Origin: Phycisphaerales bacterium
Lineage (GTDB): Bacteria; Planctomycetota; Phycisphaerae; Phycisphaerales; SM1A02
Length of the DNA stretch: 64,000 bases
NCBI GenBank assembly: GCA_022446885.1
Contig: JAKVBU010000010.1
Span: 1-64,000, forward strand
Direction of reading: 5' to 3'
Below the pieces are notes generated by a model. That model was given only the letters and a program-made list of their open reading frames with translations. It ran no database searches and was not told where the DNA came from. This document shows, one piece after another, positions 19,004 to 31,798 of this stretch (the stretch's first letter is position 1; each line of letters begins with the position of its first letter). Both the position numbers and the translations under genes were made by a program.

Positions 19004-19076
<73 letters not shown>

Positions 19077-19077
<1 letters not shown>

Positions 19078-19357: not shown

Positions 19358-19462
19358 GGTCAATGGGGGAGTGCGAACTCGCCAGCCGATCTCAATGGCA
19401 ATGGTGTCGTCGAGGTCGGTGATCTGCTGGCACTGCTTGACCTGTGGGGCACCGACTGCTGA
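19358..19462 (+). pseudogene. Orphan dockerin-like C-terminal end
   Basis: An open stretch between an in-frame TGA at 19355 and a TGA at 19460 codes for an end reading ADLNGNGVVEV then GDLLALLDLWGTDC, a single dockerin-like calcium-binding repeat of the type that closes the secreted proteins elsewhere in the window. There is no start codon, signal peptide or upstream body, so it is best read as the surviving 3' end of a lost secreted-protein gene. The 135 nt between it and the lipoprotein gene on the other strand show nothing else. Confidence 0.6.
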
Positions 19463-19597: not shown

Positions 19598-20632
19598 TCA
19601 CTCCCCGATTCGAAGCACCGCAGATCCCAGCCCAGTGACTGCATGCAGATCGCCCTTGTCATCGAGCACCAATCCGGTGGGCAAGCCGCACGCCGCATTT
19701 GTCGGAATGTCCATCACGTGATGCCATTGCTGAGTAGATAGGTCGATCACGCCAACCTGTCGCACACTCGGGCAGGTGACCCACAGGCCGCCTTTGCCAT
19801 CCAATTCAACATTATCTGGATGTTGGGGGGTGCCAATCGACGCCCACGGGCCAACTTTGCCGCTTGAGAAGTCAACATCGGCGTGCCAAATACGGTCGCC
19901 GATCATCTCGGCCACGTAGATACGGTTGCCCTGCTCGTCAATCGCCAGCCCATTGGCAAGGCATAGATCGCCGCGGACAATGCGAGGCTCGGAAGATCCA
20001 GCCGGAAGATGCCACAACGCCCCGTCACGCAGCGACGGGTCGCCAAATGGAGCCAGAAGACGATCATGCCCACCCGCTGGCGTCACTTGCGTGCTCTGCG
20101 TGAACCACAGCCCGCCATGGCTGTCGAGCCGGGCGGCATTGACACCAAAGGCATGCTGGAAGAGACGTTCGCCATGCTCGGCGGCTATGTCCACCAGCCA
20201 GATCTGGCCGCCGATGACGTCGGTCAAGATGACCTTGGTTCCATCAGCAGATCGAGTAACCCCATTGGAGAGTGGGGCAGATGTTGTTTCGTCGTACTTC
20301 CATCCCGCGTCGACCAGCGCAGCAAAGGGCCTGTGCGTGCCGTGAGCTGACAATATGCGCAGGCCATGTTCCTTGTCAGCAACGATGAGACGACTATCGG
20401 CAAGCAGTACGCCATCTTCAGGGCGATCGAGCGATGCATCAGCGGGATGGGCGTGGGTGCTGGAACTGTTGACCTCGGCTGGAGGGGTGAACGCACCCGT
20501 CGTACTGGTGCAGCCTGCCAAGAACACGGGCATCAACGCCAGCAACGGCCACCTGTTGGCGTGTCGCCTGGCGATTGCCTTGGAATTGAGACAGCCGCGC
20601 AGCATGAAGGCCGGAGAGAGTGAAGTTCGCAT
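19598..20632 (-). CDS. SMP-30/gluconolactonase-like lipoprotein
   Basis: A 344-residue lipoprotein with a six-bladed beta-propeller of the SMP-30/gluconolaconase/LRE type. The signal has a basic start, the hydrophobic WPLLALMPVFLAG and a lipobox LAGC at about residue 39. Propeller segments include PEDGVLLADSRLIVAD, SNGVTRSADGTKVILTD, LCLANGLAIDEQGNRIYVAE, HPDNVELDGKGGLWVTCP and PTGLVLDDKGDLHAVTG. These enzymes hydrolyse sugar lactones with a bound divalent metal. The start is ATG at 20632; the frame is open further upstream to 20878, but that part has no protein-like signal. Its surroundings on both sides are decayed sequence. Confidence 0.8.
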   Translation of the reverse strand: MRTSLSPAFMLRGCLNSKAIARRHANRWPLLALMPVFLAGCTSTTGAFTPPAEVNSSSTHAHPADASLDRPEDGVLLADSRLIVADKEHGLRILSAHGTHRPFAALVDAGWKYDETTSAPLSNGVTRSADGTKVILTDVIGGQIWLVDIAAEHGERLFQHAFGVNAARLDSHGGLWFTQSTQVTPAGGHDRLLAPFGDPSLRDGALWHLPAGSSEPRIVRGDLCLANGLAIDEQGNRIYVAEMIGDRIWHADVDFSSGKVGPWASIGTPQHPDNVELDGKGGLWVTCPSVRQVGVIDLSTQQWHHVMDIPTNAACGLPTGLVLDDKGDLHAVTGLGSAVLRIGE

Positions 20633-20756
20633 GGGCGCATCATCTTCGCCCTTGCCACATGCGTGCAAGCGATAGTGGCGTATTGTCGATAAACGACAGT
20701 TCAGGGAACGGCGATCCTGAGGCCAGACCCCGATAGATGCCGCTACAGCGTGTGTT

Positions 20757-21020
20757 TCAGCACGAGCCCCAATTCGCCAGCACATACAAAAGGTCGTCGG
20801 CGTCAACAACGTCGTCATCATTGGCGTCCGCTTCGTGGCCGCTTGAGCCCCAGCCGCTGATGATGCTGAGCACTTCATCGACGTTCACTTCGCCATCGCC
20901 ATTGATGTCCGGGCACTCTGTTGCCGGTCCAATCTGGGGAAACTCGAAGAGGCCATCAGCACGAATGCCCAAGGTCCACGTAGGGCCTCGGGTGACGCGG
21001 GCAGCGTTGAACAACACGAT
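20757..21020 (-). pseudogene. Broken end of a dockerin-type secreted protein
   Basis: The last ~85 codons of this frame read like the end of a secreted planctomycete protein: FNAARVTRGPTWTLGI, then two dockerin-like repeats, DINGDGEVNVDEVLSIISGWG and ADANDDDVVDADDLLYVLANWG. Upstream of about 21020 the frame stays open to 21305 but the sequence loses protein character there (Arg/Cys-rich) and has no signal peptide, while the other strand starts to look coding. The 5' part of the gene therefore appears to be lost. Confidence 0.55.
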
Positions 21021-21165
21021 CTGACGGACCAGATCGAAGCCGACCGCTACCTCAACGCCAAGAAGGCAGCCAAGAAGAAGGGGCTCGGGATCAAGATCTC
21101 CCGAGCCATCCCACACGGAACCACCTAACAAGGACGCACGAGCACGGATGCTCAAGCGACTGATC
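21021..21165 (+). pseudogene. Possible phage-like coding fragment
   Basis: From 21021 to the TAA at 21126 the plus strand codes for 35 residues, DQIEADRYLNAKKAAKKKG followed by LGIKISRAIPHGTT, with no start codon of its own. About 20 nt later an ATG at 21148 begins MLKRLINALAAPRR before the reading loses sense. The lysine-rich short protein followed by a basic MLKRL start is reminiscent of the small gene and portal gene order in tailed-phage head modules, but this is a weak resemblance that could not be checked. It abuts the broken dockerin end, so the join may be a deletion scar. Confidence 0.25.
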
Positions 21166-21448
21166 AATGCACTGGCCGCCCCGCGGCGGCACCCACGCGG
21201 CAATCCCCATGCTGCACCCATCGCCCAGTCGGGCGTCGCTCGAAGGTGTCTGCATCGTGGGGCCTGTGCGCAAGATTCTTGCCTCTCAAGTGGCCTCGAC
21301 CGCATGAGAGAGCGGGGGGTGATGGCCGGCGTGGGTAGGCTTGCTAGCAGTTAGTCTTGGTAGGGTGTGCTGGCTGCCTTGAAGTGAGATGATTGACGTA
21401 GGTGGCCCTGCTGGGGCCACGGCAGTGAACGCAAGGAGCAACCGAGGC

Positions 21449-24183: not shown

Positions 24184-25752
24184 TCAGCACTCGCCCCAGG
24201 CGCTGATCATCATCAGCAAGTCTTCGACATTGGTTTGGCCATCGCCGTTGACATCGCCCGCATCGCTGGTGCCGAAGGCCGCCAGCAGGGCCAGCAGGTC
24301 GTCTACGCCGACTTCACCATTGCCGTCGAGGTCACCAGGGCAATCGCCGCCGCACGAGACGTCGAACGTGTTGCCACCTTCATCGCTCCAACTGCCGCTG
24401 ATGTGATCGGGCGACGATCCGCAGAAGGTGGAACTGCCGACATTGGCTGCGCCGGTTGATCCGCCGATGTTGATCGCGCCGCCCGCGGTTTCGGCCTGAT
24501 TATTGGCGAAGTCGCATTGGTGGAGGTCCACGCTGCACCAGGCAATGGCCACGCCGCCACCGACCGCCCCATCGCCAGCCGCTGTGTTGTTGGCGAAGGT
24601 GCAGTTCATGTAGTCGCTCGAACCAGCGGTCGTGCTCGTGTGCAAAATGCCGCCGCCGATGTCTGCCGAGTTGTCACTGAACGTGCAGTCACTCAGGACA
24701 TGGTTATCGCCGCGGATCCGAGCGCCGCCGCCGAACTGGGCTGCATTGCCTTGGAAGGTACAGCCGGACATGTTGATGAGCGTGCCGGCTGTGACGTGCA
24801 GGCCGCCGCCATTGATCCCAGTGGCCGTGTTGTTCTCGAATGCGGTACCGCTGATGGTGTTCGTGAGGCCGGACGTGTCGGCCAGATCTACACCGCCGCC
24901 TTCATCTGCCGTGTTTCCTGAGACAGTGCAGCCTGTCATGTTCAGGGGGATCAAACCGCTGTAGATGCCGCCGCCGGTCTGGGCTGCCGTATTGGAATTG
25001 ATCTGGCTACTGGTGATGGAGACCGTCGGGCCATTGCCATAGGCGTTGAGGTACAGCCCGCCGCCACTATCGGAGGCACTGTTGTTGGTGATGATGCATC
25101 CCTCAAGTGAAACTGCGCCTTCGCCATGGAACTGAATGCCGCCGCCCTTGTCCGCGGAGTTGTTCTTGACGATGCAGTCAATGAAGTTGGCTTGATTCAT
25201 CGAGTCGAGGCGTATGCCGCTGTCCAGATTGTTCTGAAAGAGGCACCCTGTCACCGAGGGGAGGTTTCCGCTGAGCACGTAGAGGCCGTGGCCGCCATTG
25301 CCGGTGAACTTGCAGTTCTCAATAGTGAGGCCGACCCAGTCTGCGGTCAGACCATCGCCATCGTTATCTCGAAAGTGGCAGTTGGTGAACGTGTAGGTGC
25401 CGTGGACATTCGCGCCCTGCGATGTGCCTCCGGTGAATACCAGATTCGAGAATTCAAGATTGCAATTGCCCGAGTAGATGCATCGGCTGGCGCCTTGCGC
25501 ATCGAGCGTCGTTGCCGGTTCGCCATTGCCGTCGGTCATGCCTTGGAACGTGAGTGTCTGGGAGTCCAGATAGATGGACGAGGTTGTGTGCGTGCCTGCC
25601 GCAATGAGAATCGTGTCGCCATGGCTTGAGGCATCGACCGCCGCCTGAACGGTTGCATATTGCTCAGGCACCTTCAAGGTGGCTCCGGCCGCGGATGCCG
25701 CAATCGCGGTGGCAGCCCAGAGGGCCAGAACTTGATTGAGGTTGATAGGCAA
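24184..25752 (-). CDS. Secreted right-handed beta-helix protein with dockerin-like end
   Basis: A 522-residue surface or secreted protein. A signal peptide (LALWAATAIAASAAGA) is followed by VPEQYATVQAAVDASSHGDTI, the usual entry to a right-handed parallel beta-helix, and then by repeated coils with N-N-T/S-A-x-x-G-G-G turns up to about residue 460 (for example NNSADKGGGIQFHG, NTADEGGGVDLAD). The end has two dockerin-like repeats, DLDGNGEVGVDDLLALLAAFG and DVNGDGQTNVEDLLMMISAWG. The start is a TTG: it has GGGAGGA about 9 nt upstream and directly precedes the signal peptide, whereas the upstream frame (to 26064) does not look coding. Confidence 0.85.
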   Translation of the reverse strand: MPINLNQVLALWAATAIAASAAGATLKVPEQYATVQAAVDASSHGDTILIAAGTHTTSSIYLDSQTLTFQGMTDGNGEPATTLDAQGASRCIYSGNCNLEFSNLVFTGGTSQGANVHGTYTFTNCHFRDNDGDGLTADWVGLTIENCKFTGNGGHGLYVLSGNLPSVTGCLFQNNLDSGIRLDSMNQANFIDCIVKNNSADKGGGIQFHGEGAVSLEGCIITNNSASDSGGGLYLNAYGNGPTVSITSSQINSNTAAQTGGGIYSGLIPLNMTGCTVSGNTADEGGGVDLADTSGLTNTISGTAFENNTATGINGGGLHVTAGTLINMSGCTFQGNAAQFGGGARIRGDNHVLSDCTFSDNSADIGGGILHTSTTAGSSDYMNCTFANNTAAGDGAVGGGVAIAWCSVDLHQCDFANNQAETAGGAINIGGSTGAANVGSSTFCGSSPDHISGSWSDEGGNTFDVSCGGDCPGDLDGNGEVGVDDLLALLAAFGTSDAGDVNGDGQTNVEDLLMMISAWGEC

Positions 25753-26041
25753 AAGGCTTTCCTCCCACGTTCTCAGTGCACCCTGGCCATGGTTGTCATG
25801 GCGAGGCAGGACTCCATGACAGCGGATATGGGGGCGCTTTGCCAGAGATAAAGGCCAACTTGGATGGTCAATCTGGCGCAGCACGCCCTTCCCTTGTTTG
25901 AGGGGGGCATGCGGTGCGCATGCGGTGGTTTGCGAGAGGGAGGCGAGGCAGTAACTGAGGGGGGGGCTTGAATGAAGCTGAGCCAGTGGAGACGATACGC
26001 GGTTAAAGGCGTGCGGGGGCTTCGCCTGACGGCACTGTGAG
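25753..26041. other. Divergent intergenic region
   Basis: About 290 nt between the beta-helix gene and the mini-dockerin gene. A possible minus-strand promoter (TTGACC near 25865 with a TATCTC about 15 nt on) faces the beta-helix gene. Nothing coding is seen. Confidence 0.35.
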
Positions 26042-26185
26042 ATGAGGATTCTGATGCGAAACAAGTGTGTTTTGACAGCCTTGTTGGCTATTGCAGGCGG
26101 CGCTCATGCCGATCTTGACGGCGACGGCTCGGTGGGTGCGTCTGATCTGCTCATGGTGCTGGCCCAGTGGGGGCCGTGCGATTGA
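26042..26185 (+). CDS. Secreted 47-residue mini-dockerin protein
   Basis: A tiny gene with ATG at 26042 and TGA at 26183-26185. The protein starts with a good signal peptide (basic MRNK, hydrophobic VLTALLAIAGG, cleavage after AHA). What remains is 23-24 residues: one dockerin-like repeat, DLDGDGSVGASDLLMVLAQWG, ending PCD. So the mature peptide would be just the calcium-binding motif that closes the large secreted proteins here. No Shine-Dalgarno is seen. It may be a real small secreted peptide or a gene whose middle has been deleted in frame; both ends are intact, which favours either a clean deletion or function. Confidence 0.55.
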   Translation: MRILMRNKCVLTALLAIAGGAHADLDGDGSVGASDLLMVLAQWGPCD

Positions 26186-26265
26186 TCATGGCGGTGTGCC
26201 ATGTGGGTTCTGGCCTGCCAATCAGATTAGACTGCTGATCATCATCTCTTACGAGGAGGGCTGTC

Positions 26266-26568
26266 ATGCACATGCTCGTCATCAATTTTCAGCTGCACGA
26301 ACTCAGTCACGAGGCCTTTGAGGGGATTGCCCAAGAGGTCGCTCCGGCGTTCGCCGCGATCCCGGGGCTCGTCTCCAAAACATTCCTGTCGAACCCGGAG
26401 ACCAACACCTACGGCGGTGTCTATGTGTTCGAGAACGAGCAGGCCATGCGCGAGTATCAGGCATCGGACTTGTACGCCGGCTTGGGCGCCAACGAGCACT
26501 TTGTGAACATGCAGGTGCGAGACTTCGGCGTGCTTGAAGGACCGTCAAAGATCACGCGGGCGATGTGA
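26266..26568 (+). CDS. YdhR-like monooxygenase-family protein
   Basis: A 100-residue protein of the YdhR type, small dimeric alpha/beta-barrel (ferredoxin-like) proteins. It shows MLVINFQL, then FEGIAQEVAPAFAAIPGLVSKTFL, NPETNTYGGVYVFENEQAM and a C-terminal strand. YdhR relatives may act as cofactor-free monooxygenases on aromatic compounds, but no substrate is known. GAGGAGG 8 nt before ATG is a strong ribosome site, and TAGACT at 26228-26233 may be the -10. Confidence 0.8.
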   Translation: MHMLVINFQLHELSHEAFEGIAQEVAPAFAAIPGLVSKTFLSNPETNTYGGVYVFENEQAMREYQASDLYAGLGANEHFVNMQVRDFGVLEGPSKITRAM

Positions 26569-26902: not shown

Positions 26903-28963
26903 TCACCCGATGCCTAGACGCTTGGAGGTCCCACGCCGGCTGGAGTTGCTCACCCGGCGGCCGCCGTCGCGCTTGGGCTTTGCCCCTCCTTGTTGGACAG
27001 GTTTGCTGCCATTGGGCTTGCCCCTGTATCCGCCAGACTTGCCCTTGGTGCCGCTGCGAGTATCACTGTCGCTGCGAGCAGTTCGGCTTTCGCCATCACG
27101 CTTCCACTTGGGCTTGAATCCGCCTTCTCGCTTGGGCTTGAAGCCGCCAGCCTTCTTGTGGTCGCCCGCCTTGCCCTTGTAGCCACCACGACGCTCGCCC
27201 CCGTCGCGACCTTCACCATCGCGTTGCCACTTGGGCTTGATTCCGCCTTCTCGTTTGGGCTTGAAGCCGCCGGGCTTGCCCTTGTAGCCACCACGACGCT
27301 CACCGCCGTCGCGACCTTCACCATCGCGTTGCCACTTGGGCTTGAAGCCGCCGGGCTTGCCCTTATAGCCGCCGCGGCGCTCACCGCCGTCGCGACCTTC
27401 ACCATCGCGTTGCCACTTGGGCTTGAATCCGCCTTCTCGTTTGGGCTTGAAGCTGCCCGCCTTGCCCTTATAGCCACCGCGGCGTTCACCGCCGTCGCGA
27501 CCTTCGCCATCGCGTTGCCACTTGGGCTTGAAGCCGCCTTCTCGTTTGGGCTTGAAGCTGCCCGCCTTGCCCTTATAGCCACCGCGGCGTTCGCCGCCGT
27601 CGCGACCTTCGCCATCGCGTTGCCACTTGGGCTTGAAGCCGCCTTCTCGTTTGGGCTTAAATCCGCCAGCCTTGCCCTTGTGGCCACCGCGGCGCTCTGG
27701 CGCTGTTTGCCGCGATGAGCGGTGCTGATCGTTGGCGCGTGGGGTTGCCTGTGCGGGGGCTGCTTCTGGCTGGTCCACCCGCGGCGGGGTCGTCATGGCA
27801 GGGAGTTCCTCTGCGTCAGGCAATATGACCTGCGTGCGGCGTTCAATGGCCCGCAGCAGTTTTGCCTGGTCAGGGCAGCAGAACGTCACGGCTGTGCCCG
27901 TAGCGCCGGCTCTGGCGGTGCGACCGATTCGGTGCACCCAGGTTTCGGGGTCGACGGGCATGTCGTAATTGACCACGTGGGTGACGTCGTCGACGTCCAG
28001 GCCGCGTGATGCAATATCAGTTGCGACCAGGACCCGAATTCGGCCGGACTTGAAGTCCTTCATCGTGGTGTTGCGGGCTGCCTGCGTCTTGTTGGCGTGA
28101 ATGGCATCGGCGCCGACGCCGGATCGAGCGAGCCGCTTCGCTACTTTGTCCGCCCCGTACTTGGTGCGGGTGAAGACGAGCGCTCTCTGCACTCGATCTT
28201 CGGCCAGTACATGCGTGAGCAACTGCACCTTGCGATGAGGCTCGACCATGAACAGCCGCTGTTCGATCGTGTCAAGCGTGGTCGATTCCGGCGCTGTCTC
28301 GACGAGTTCAGGATCTCGCATGAGATCGTCGGCCAGCGTGCGGATGGTGCCTGAGATCGTCGCCGAGAACAGCAGCGTCTGTCGCTGATCGGGCATCAGG
28401 GCCACGATTCGGCGAATGTCGTGCACGAAGCCCATGTCCAGCATGCGGTCGGCTTCGTCAAGTACGAGCGTCTCCACCTGACTCAAGTTGATGATGCCCT
28501 GCTCCTGCAGGTCTTTGAGCCGCCCTGGTGTAGCAACAAGCACGTCAGCGCCACGCCGCAATGCCCGCACCTGGTGATATTGATTGACGCCGCCGTAGAC
28601 CACGCCGTATCCGAGTTTGAGTTGACGGCCGTAGCTCACAAATCGCTCGTGAATCTGGGTGGCAAGCTCACGGGTGGGGCACAAGATCAACGCACGTGGT
28701 GACACAGTGCGACGCTGCCCGCGATTGCGATCGAATCGAGCCGCCTTGCCTTCAAGGCCGCTGTCTGACTCGGCCAAGCGATGCAGGATCGGCAGGGCGA
28801 AGGCGCAGGTCTTGCCTGTGCCTGTCTGGGCTGTGCCCAATATGTCACGGCCTGCCATGGCCGGAGGAATGGCCCCAGCCTGGATATCGGTGGCGGTTGT
28901 GTAGCCTTCGGCGGTCACCGCGCGAACGATGGGCTCGACAAGCCCGAGATCGGCAAAATGCAT
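26903..28963 (-). CDS. DEAD-box RNA helicase with repetitive basic tail (RhlE-like)
   Basis: A 686-residue RNA helicase. The core has the Q motif (TATDIQAGAIP), Walker A AQTGTGKT (45-52), PTRELA, DEAD (169-172), SAT (200-202), the ARG-like ASRGLDV and HRIGRTARAG. An insert with charged residues (about 66-88) lies between motifs I and Ia. After about residue 420 a tail of six near-identical repeats follows, each built from RRGGYKGKAGSFKPK, REGGFKPKWQRD and GEGRDGGE, before a Lys/Ser-rich end. Such RGG/lysine tails bind RNA. Likely roles are ribosome assembly, cold growth or RNA decay. A promoter about 165 nt upstream gives a long leader. Confidence 0.93.
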   Translation of the reverse strand: MHFADLGLVEPIVRAVTAEGYTTATDIQAGAIPPAMAGRDILGTAQTGTGKTCAFALPILHRLAESDSGLEGKAARFDRNRGQRRTVSPRALILCPTRELATQIHERFVSYGRQLKLGYGVVYGGVNQYHQVRALRRGADVLVATPGRLKDLQEQGIINLSQVETLVLDEADRMLDMGFVHDIRRIVALMPDQRQTLLFSATISGTIRTLADDLMRDPELVETAPESTTLDTIEQRLFMVEPHRKVQLLTHVLAEDRVQRALVFTRTKYGADKVAKRLARSGVGADAIHANKTQAARNTTMKDFKSGRIRVLVATDIASRGLDVDDVTHVVNYDMPVDPETWVHRIGRTARAGATGTAVTFCCPDQAKLLRAIERRTQVILPDAEELPAMTTPPRVDQPEAAPAQATPRANDQHRSSRQTAPERRGGHKGKAGGFKPKREGGFKPKWQRDGEGRDGGERRGGYKGKAGSFKPKREGGFKPKWQRDGEGRDGGERRGGYKGKAGSFKPKREGGFKPKWQRDGEGRDGGERRGGYKGKPGGFKPKWQRDGEGRDGGERRGGYKGKPGGFKPKREGGIKPKWQRDGEGRDGGERRGGYKGKAGDHKKAGGFKPKREGGFKPKWKRDGESRTARSDSDTRSGTKGKSGGYRGKPNGSKPVQQGGAKPKRDGGRRVSNSSRRGTSKRLGIG
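27050..27700 (-). repeat. Tandem repeats inside the helicase gene
   Basis: Six in-frame units of about 105 nt (35 codons) or 81 nt (27 codons, lacking the REGGFKPK part). The fourth unit is the short form and the fifth has REGGIKPK; the last has an extra DHKKAGG. Neighbouring copies are almost identical at the DNA level, so the array probably expands and contracts by slippage or recombination. All six frames stay open across much of it, which explains long false frames on both strands. Confidence 0.85.
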
Positions 28964-29533: not shown

Positions 29534-31798
29534 ATGCCCGTATCAAACATGCCCCGCACCAATGGCGCCCGCACACTCGGCGCTGCAGTCTTTCTGGCGA
29601 TATGTCCTTTGGCCTTGGCCGATGACGCCCGCCATTGGATCGCGTTCGACAACTCGCCCGCCGGCACCGCTCCGACCGTGGTGTTGATGCCGGATCAGAG
29701 TTCGATCGATGCATCAACCTTCAAGGTCGTCGTGCACGGCATGTGGTCAGAGGATCGAATCGTGCCCGGAACCAGCGACCGACTCCAGGCGCTCTCACTG
29801 CCGGGGCAACATGCGCCAGCGACCAACGCCCTGGGGCTGCCGGAACTGCCCGGCATCGGCCTGCATCTGGCCTGCACCAAACATGGCGCAAACGGCGAAG
29901 GGGCAATCGAGCGAGTCGTGATAGAGCCGGTTTCGCAGATCGCACTCGACGGCCTGGTGCCGTGGCCCGCCCAGCCAGATGACGGCATCGATCGGTCTGA
30001 TGGAAGTGATGGCGCCTTCTATTACGACGCCGACTTCTATCAGCAAGCGTCAGAGCCCTTTCCCCTCGAAGACGCTCGGCTGACGTCGCCGCCATTCAAG
30101 TACCGCGGTGTACCCAGTCAGGCCTGCGCTGCAACCTGCATGCGCAGCATTCCATCCCAGAAGCGACTCATCGTAGACACCACCTTCATCTGCAAGGTGC
30201 AGTTTGCCGGCGAGCGGGCCGATGAAGTGTCACTGACCCCCCGGGCTGCAGTGGCATTCGACATGCGCTATCACAATTCAATCCTGTGGTGGGACCTGTC
30301 GCTGAGCCGAATGAACATGGCGGCGACCGAGGGCGATTACCTCATCGTCACCGCAAACAAGTACATCAACGAGTTGATGCCGCTCATTCGGCAGAAGATC
30401 GAACGAGGGCTGCACGTCACGATTGTGACGACCGAGAGCCTGGGGGCGGGATTCGATGCGACCGACGTCAAGGACGCCATCGCTGACTGGTACGGCGACT
30501 GCCAGAACCAGTTTGAGGCCTACGTGCTGCTCATCGGTGACGTCGATGAGATGCCCATGCATGTTGATCCACTGAATGCACTGCCTTCAGACCACTACTA
30601 CGTGTGCCTTGATGACGAGCTCTATCCCTCGTGTGAGATCGGCCGGTACTCGGTCGATTCAGAGTCTGATTTGGCCGAGCAGATTTCCAAGACGATGACC
30701 TACTCCGAGTCTCCGATGCTCTTTTCCGGCCACTACAAGCGGTCGCTGCTGGCCGCTCACGAGCAGGAGAGCAAAAACTACGTCGAGTGCATCGAAGACA
30801 TCGAGGCCGCCACCTACTGGGGCGTCACCCCTTCCTTCACGATGTACTCGGGCCGTGAGGCCGGGTCTACCGTCGCCAATGTGGTGAATGACATCAGCAA
30901 TACGCACTACGGCTTGGTGATGTACCGCGGCCACGGCTGGCAGCGCAAGTGGAGCGATTGGAACATCGCCAACGAAGACCTGTTCGAGTCAGATGTTGCG
31001 GGCTTGGCCAACGGCGATCACACGCCCATCGTCGTGTCTGTGGCTTGTGGCAACAGCAAGATTGACCAGGCGGAAGATCTCGATGACTGCATCGGTGAGA
31101 TCTGGATGGAAGGGTCGAAGAACGGCGCCGTGGCGCATATTGGCTCCATTCGATCCAGTTACACGACTCCCAATCACGAGTTTGCCAAGTCCTTCCACAA
31201 GTACTACTGGTCTGGCTACAACACCAGTCTCGGCGAAATGATGCAGGATGCCTGGCTCTCGGCTCGACTGGCCGTCTCGGACGCGTCGCGCGCCGAGAAG
31301 AACATCTACATGTCGCAGTTGCTCGGTGATCCAGAGTTGCGTCCGTGGCGTACGTCGCCGATCGGTCTGCGGCTTGAAACACTGCCGCAGTTTGAGGCTG
31401 GTCAAATGGACTACCAGTTCGAACTGGATTTGCAGGACGTGCCCTTTGATCCCTCTGACGTGATCCTGGTGATGGTCGTGAACGACGAGATCCGAGGCAT
31501 GGGGCGCTTCAGCGCTGATGGAGGCCTTCAGCTTCCAGCCGAGCTCGATGCCGATGATCAGGTTGTGATCCGTCTGCACACGGAAGTGGCCAACTCCACC
31601 GACGCCCGTTACGAGTCGGACGTGCAGGATGAGACATCCTGCGTCGAAGATCTCGATGGGAGTGGCACCGTTGATGTCAACGATCTGCTGGTGATGATCA
31701 GCATGTGGGCGACCGAAGCGGGTGATCTTGACGGCGATGGAACGACCAATGTCAATGATCTGCTCGTTGTGCTGGCAGCATTCGGCCCCTGCAGCTGA
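29534..31798 (+). CDS. C25 (gingipain-like) cysteine peptidase with dockerin-like end
   Basis: A 754-residue secreted peptidase of family C25. It has a signal peptide (LGAAVFLAICPLALA), an N-terminal beta-rich pro-part to about residue 250, and a caspase-like catalytic domain. The region DYLIVTANKYINELMPLI and YVLLIGDVDEMP mark its start; the catalytic His467 is in YRGHGW and Cys505 in VSVACGNS. A beta-sandwich part follows from about residue 600, and the end has two dockerin-like repeats, DLDGSGTVDVNDLLVMISMW and DLDGDGTTNVNDLLVVLAAFG. It would act outside the cell on proteins. Cleavage preference (Arg, Lys or other) cannot be told. Confidence 0.88.
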   Translation: MPVSNMPRTNGARTLGAAVFLAICPLALADDARHWIAFDNSPAGTAPTVVLMPDQSSIDASTFKVVVHGMWSEDRIVPGTSDRLQALSLPGQHAPATNALGLPELPGIGLHLACTKHGANGEGAIERVVIEPVSQIALDGLVPWPAQPDDGIDRSDGSDGAFYYDADFYQQASEPFPLEDARLTSPPFKYRGVPSQACAATCMRSIPSQKRLIVDTTFICKVQFAGERADEVSLTPRAAVAFDMRYHNSILWWDLSLSRMNMAATEGDYLIVTANKYINELMPLIRQKIERGLHVTIVTTESLGAGFDATDVKDAIADWYGDCQNQFEAYVLLIGDVDEMPMHVDPLNALPSDHYYVCLDDELYPSCEIGRYSVDSESDLAEQISKTMTYSESPMLFSGHYKRSLLAAHEQESKNYVECIEDIEAATYWGVTPSFTMYSGREAGSTVANVVNDISNTHYGLVMYRGHGWQRKWSDWNIANEDLFESDVAGLANGDHTPIVVSVACGNSKIDQAEDLDDCIGEIWMEGSKNGAVAHIGSIRSSYTTPNHEFAKSFHKYYWSGYNTSLGEMMQDAWLSARLAVSDASRAEKNIYMSQLLGDPELRPWRTSPIGLRLETLPQFEAGQMDYQFELDLQDVPFDPSDVILVMVVNDEIRGMGRFSADGGLQLPAELDADDQVVIRLHTEVANSTDARYESDVQDETSCVEDLDGSGTVDVNDLLVMISMWATEAGDLDGDGTTNVNDLLVVLAAFGPCS

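Follow-up and report, generated by a model that had tools for sequence, protein, structure and literature searches.

Locus and reading frame

The window analyzed here is a stretch of 64,000 nucleotides from a Phycisphaerales bacterium and belongs to a 2.87 Mb draft genome of 108 contigs. It contains a short ORF on the plus strand, which lies between a divergent gene for a beta-helix protein and a gene for a YdhR-like monooxygenase. The ORF and the features that bear on it are listed by position.

19358-19459, plus strand: loose dockerin 3' end, a 34-codon frame without a start, GQWGSANSPADLNGNGVVEVGDLLALLDLWGTDC
24184-25752, minus strand: divergent beta-helix protein with two half-repeats; the likely start is TTG 25752 and the listed ORF extends to 26064
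26042-26185, plus strand: short ORF, 47 codons counted from the first ATG, MRILMRNKCVLTALLAIAGGAHADLDGDGSVGASDLLMVLAQWGPCD
26044-26048, plus strand: GAGGA, a likely ribosome-binding site as read from the sequence, five bases 5' of ATG 26054
26054-26110, plus strand: predicted signal peptide MRNKCVLTALLAIAGGAHA (crude rule), starting at the second ATG
26106-26113, plus strand: junction ATGCCGAT..., where DNA similarity to other half-repeats starts in the best matches
26111-26182, plus strand: one dockerin half-repeat DLDGDGSVGASDLLMVLAQWGPCD, the entire predicted mature product; Pfam Dockerin_1 scores below cut-off
26266-26568, plus strand: YdhR-like monooxygenase, the right neighbor; anchor common to sister genome G002 at 90% identity

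The sequence-only reading had described a 47-codon ORF that encodes a signal peptide and one dockerin-like repeat, and this ORF is confirmed at 26042-26185 on the plus strand, with the signal peptide called by a crude rule. An in-frame TGA at 26027-26029 closes the frame on the upstream side. Since GAGGA lies five bases ahead of the second ATG, translation probably starts at 26054 and gives a product of 43 aa. This form consists of a 19-residue predicted signal peptide followed by a 24-residue half-dockerin. Codon use has a mean log-odds of 0.213 in the frame of the ORF and of -0.504 to 0.127 in the other five frames, values that come from a short sequence. A promoter and terminator scan found none specific to the ORF, and the repeats around it amount to one 10-base pair.

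The signal peptide was called with a crude rule of the authors' own and not with SignalP; the rule is satisfied at residues 1-19 of the 43-aa form. With any start codon and a slack of up to 4 codons, it is satisfied at 323 of 127,754 window positions, and with ATG and no slack at 64 of 127,754; these positions cover both strands, with the ORF and the other secreted genes counted in. When the intergenic stretch was shuffled 100 times, the corresponding counts were 110 and 15 of 78,200. Such a signal peptide is seldom found at random positions. Searched against the genus, the DNA of the 5' part (25752-26107) gave, apart from the self match, nothing better than E 0.23, so no surviving parent copy is apparent elsewhere.

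The half-repeat and known dockerin families

Calcium-type dockerin loops have acidic residues at positions 1, 3, 5 and 12. The mature part of the short ORF has a single loop, DLDGDGSVGASD, which carries acidic residues at all four of these positions and thus appears to be of the calcium type. A half-repeat alone is without the partner half of the known dockerin fold. The match to dockerin type I (Pfam Dockerin_1, PF00404) is weak and of half length, covering residues 18-39 (22 residues) with an E of 0.00098 and a score of 19.7 bits, under the cut-off of 22.9. Since two long proteins of the window also score under 22.9 (18.2 and 17.4 bits), the low score does not set the small ORF apart.

NCBIfam returned no family for the short ORF at E <= 1. 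The half-repeat has the same acidic loop, hydrophobic helix and terminal WGxC as the GC-type dockerin domain (NCBIfam NF041540), a two-half model of 67 positions with a cut-off of 29 bits. However, the short ORF has a single half and no passenger protein, and does not match the model at E <= 1. The long window proteins at 24184 and 29534 reach 22.1 and 17.6 bits against this model, below the cut-off, and the 1347-aa window protein has no match to it. Two half-repeats are present in each of the window's three long dockerin proteins, compared to one in the short ORF. The half-repeat of the short ORF is 75% identical to the one that closes a 710-aa frame elsewhere in the genome (C23). The gene at 29534-31798 on the plus strand encodes a dockerin-tailed protein of peptidase family C25, which has low-score similarity to the type IX secretion sortase PorU.

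A cohesin partner is expected for a type I dockerin, but none was found in the genus of the short ORF. Cohesin PF00963 matched in 0 of the 3 genomes of the genus, which are drafts, and in 14 of 101 family genomes. A cohesin/dockerin "planctosome" is proposed for freshwater Planctomycetes (PMC6461901). The proposal likewise concerns dockerin-tailed secreted planctomycete proteins, not in cellulose breakdown; in contrast to the genus of the short ORF, it includes cohesin-bearing partners. The literature search returned no stand-alone half-dockerin in the titles and abstract openings of the papers listed, and nothing under the term "GC-type dockerin".

Occurrence of half-repeats and relatives of the ORF

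In the search of the genome for half-repeats, 150 of 198 candidates were scored and the best 150 of 174 matches were used, so that divergent halves were missed. The best 150 of 174 matches group into 104 places, of which 46 have two half-repeats and 58 have one. The open frame at these places has a median of 521 aa and is shorter than 100 aa at seven of them (25, 31, 31, 51, 52, 66 and 69). The sequence-only reading had noted that such repeats elsewhere end long proteins, which agrees with this median among the matches listed and with the proteins of 626, 754 and 1347 aa in the window.

The two sister genomes, which make up the rest of the three-genome genus, have no match to the short ORF at E <= 1e-8. 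In 180 other family genomes there is no full-length counterpart among the matches listed. The best of the listed matches outside its own genome has an E of 8.3e-10 and lies in a 484-aa open frame, compared to 6.4e-25 for the self match. Some match at E <= 0.001 occurs in 179 of 181 family genomes, which makes dockerin repeats nearly universal in the family. The family search generally scored 40 candidates per genome and gave at least 150 matches, a depth at which a very divergent short relative could escape. An open frame of less than 100 aa was found for 9 of the 150 family matches listed, one of which is the short ORF itself. Other stand-alone genes with a signal and a single repeat were sought by reading the remaining eight short frames by eye, together with frames of 117 and 138 aa, and none qualifies. 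These ten frames lack a start and signal, hold two halves or are near a contig end; at least five of the short family frames are close to a contig end. When the two short ORFs were aligned (the second is described below) and used to scan named genomes, five relatives were obtained, and in all of them the match is preceded by at least 124 open codons. A conserved small-protein family is rejected, with no relatives among the matches listed for the two sisters and the 180 family genomes.

Neighboring genes and the junction

The DNA similarity to G002 begins at 26251, past the stop of the short ORF. In G002 the gene to the left of ydhR encodes a DPP-IV-like peptidase, on the opposite strand, and this side holds no half-dockerin ORF. 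To the right of ydhR, ahead of the helicase gene, an opposite-strand frame of 82 codons terminates in a single half-repeat and resembles a beta-helix gene's 3' end. In the second sister genome, G001, ydhR is without a match at E <= 1e-12. The DPP-IV gene of G001 adjoins the DEAD-box helicase gene, with no dockerin from one to the other among the listed ORFs of at least 70 aa. The genome of the window has a DPP-IV relative that is 25% identical only and located elsewhere, and neither sister genome yielded the 487-aa gene that lies left of the short ORF. Since DPP-IV is the left neighbor of ydhR in G002 and adjoins the helicase gene in G001, with other genes at this place in the window, the locus of the short ORF is a variable one that turns over. 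In genome G036 the ydhR gene is 73% identical, and the upstream gene on the same strand encodes a 421-aa protein in which no dockerin repeat was seen by eye. An arrangement with a long gene inserted between both flanks was not found; G002 shares the right flank only.

The DEAD-box helicase of the window (26903-28963, minus strand) has a long C-terminal tail of near-identical repeats (FKPKWQRDGEGRDGGERRGGYKGK...), and similar repeats are present in G002. Another contig of the window's genome, L127 (G000:C45:1-5406), also ends in a helicase gene. The final 141 bases of this gene are identical to the helicase tail found at the contig end of G002, and the longest match to the window's own helicase tail is 21 bases; contig C45 is therefore probably a misbinned piece of the sister organism's genome.

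The best DNA matches of the short ORF to other half-repeats start at about 26106, at ATGCCGATCTTGA, the final residues of the signal peptide. For a region of 511 bases, the DNA matches listed outside the window are confined to its bases 340-448, which are the half-repeat and a few flanking bases. The repeat common to other genes is about 75 bases long, with 70-80% identity in most of the matches listed. The junction appears to fit codons that are common to the ends of signal peptides (xAD) and the starts of half-repeats (xADLDGDG).

A second short ORF and loose gene ends

The same genome contains a sibling ORF of 49 codons, MRSTSPIAALTAAALSSVTLAATWTVDDDGGVDVGDLLEVIANWGLCDS (G000:C25, L002:1460-1609). 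Its layout is a signal peptide, then ATWTVDDDG, then one half-repeat GVDVGDLLEVIANWGLCDS. The segment TWTVDDDG is the opening of beta-helix proteins, and a complete gene in G001 (a 309-aa frame) contains a signal, DTWTVDNDGSADFDTIQAAV, a beta-helix and two half-repeats. Since a beta-helix-type start is fused in frame to one half-repeat, the sibling looks like a gene minus its middle. The segment TVDDDGGVDVGDLL of the sibling is in register with DLDGDGxVDVGDLL, which places its join on D-x-D-G codons, in frame. The right neighbor of the sibling has no relative in 100 other genomes.

The search with the N-terminus of the sibling returned the complete gene and two 5' fragments at E 1.1e-4 to 0.55. 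The fragment in G001, a 54-aa frame, breaks off after TWTVDDDGAADFDNIQAA, and the fragment in G002 is a 50-aa frame with a TTG start and ATWTVDDDGADKPDAD.

Other dockerin ends were also observed. The loose 3' end at 19358-19459 lies about 280 bases past a tRNA-Met gene (19004-19077). A 182-aa frame at 20757-21305 on the minus strand has two terminal half-repeats, no signal peptide and an odd-looking upstream sequence, and overlaps a 426-aa frame at 19598-20878 on the same strand; it is perhaps another broken dockerin gene. At L008 1415-2026 (G000:C1), a half-repeat ADFNGDGLVGASDILLVLSAWGPC lies within a 203-codon frame of which the rest looks non-coding, and this is perhaps another displaced dockerin end.

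Discussion

The short ORF is probably the remnant of an in-frame deletion in a larger secreted dockerin-tailed gene. The part encoding the signal peptide, at the 5' end, would have been joined to the last half of a C-terminal two-repeat dockerin with the loss of the middle. The join probably occurred at a putative microhomology, for example the Ala-Asp codons found both at the end of many signal peptides and just ahead of many half-repeats. Such joins tend to stay in frame, since these genes repeat their acidic DxDG-type codons in one and the same frame. If the ORF is transcribed, its product would be a 24-residue half-dockerin without a known partner, and the remnant is most likely without a selected function.

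The sequence-only reading had raised the possibility that an in-frame deletion joined the two ends of a larger gene. This proposal gains indirect support from the C25 sibling, the complete gene in G001 and the loose gene ends, which include 5' ends in G001 and G002 and 3' ends beside the ydhR gene of G002 and at 19358-19459 of the window. As in other remnants of in-frame internal deletions, two ends would be joined and the middle gone, as the sibling suggests. The undeleted allele on which a direct demonstration would depend was not found, nor was the parent gene, and because of this the deletion is argued from the sibling case. Three observations count against a remnant. Pure decay would not long preserve an intact frame, ribosome-binding site and good signal peptide, all of which the ORF has. 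The occurrence of two such ORFs in the same genome could be a hint of selection. Lastly, a single half is not rare, since one half was counted at 58 of the 104 places (best 150 of 174 matches, with divergent halves missed).

The ORF could also be a chance fusion, in which a loose dockerin 3' end landed downstream of a signal peptide or start codon of unrelated origin. Such 3' ends are common in the window and in G002, and the part of the locus left of the ORF is not shared by the sister genomes searched, both of which are consistent with such an event. However, a fitting signal peptide occurs by chance at about 0.02 to 0.25% of positions; therefore, two cases in seven listed short frames are unlikely without the gene's own 5' end. 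A chance fusion is considered rather unlikely.

Also unlikely is a functional secreted mini-dockerin, a free half-repeat that would occupy the receptor of many dockerin-tailed proteins, perhaps as a calcium-bound dimer held by its single cysteine. The intact frame, the ribosome-binding site, the signal peptide by the crude rule and the complete acidic loop all agree with a working gene, as does the second short ORF of similar design. However, no relative is present among the matches listed for the 180 family genomes, cohesin is absent from the three genomes of the genus and found in a minority of the family, and in the sibling the loop is chimeric, with a beta-helix start. The structure model of the 43-aa protein has two helices and is of low confidence (mean pLDDT 61.6). 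The suggestion in the sequence-only reading of a free secreted ligand or competitor thus found no positive evidence, given the lack of a full-length relative among the matches listed, the cohesin result and the missing half of the fold. In a more elaborate version, the short ORF and the C25 sibling would be a selected pair of secreted half-dockerins that dimerizes, perhaps via the terminal cysteine, into a passenger-less dockerin capping or competing for the surface receptor of about 100 dockerin-tailed proteins; this is quite improbable.

An assembly artefact, in which two contigs of a metagenome-assembled genome were joined over repeated dockerin DNA, is very unlikely. The genome is a draft of 108 contigs and at least one of them seems to come from a sister organism, but a repeat of about 75 bases at 70-80% identity (in most matches listed) is short for an assembler join, and the short ORF is interior to a contig of at least 152 kb.

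The least probable explanation, that a dockerin first half has worn down and happens to resemble a signal peptide, is largely ruled out by both comparisons with true first halves, despite a PDB match to the xylanase Y dockerin (2ccl_B) that starts at query residue 8, inside the signal, and the many listed family matches that start at residues 5-13 of 43: the segment has a mean of -0.84 against 43 true first halves, which score 40.2 to 95.8, and lies inside the range of 11 other signal peptides and N-termini (-9.81 to 8.16), while its position-weight score of -1.41 is below two signal-peptide controls (0.64 and 0.69) and the median of true halves is 16.8.

If the ORF is a real mini-dockerin, it would offer a handle on the receptor of the dockerin-tailed proteins of this genus, where the search found no cohesin. 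If it is the remnant of a deleted gene, as is favored here, then the large set of dockerin-tailed genes in these bacteria would be quickly gained and lost. Short readable gene ends would persist in this process, and gene finders may call them secreted peptides.
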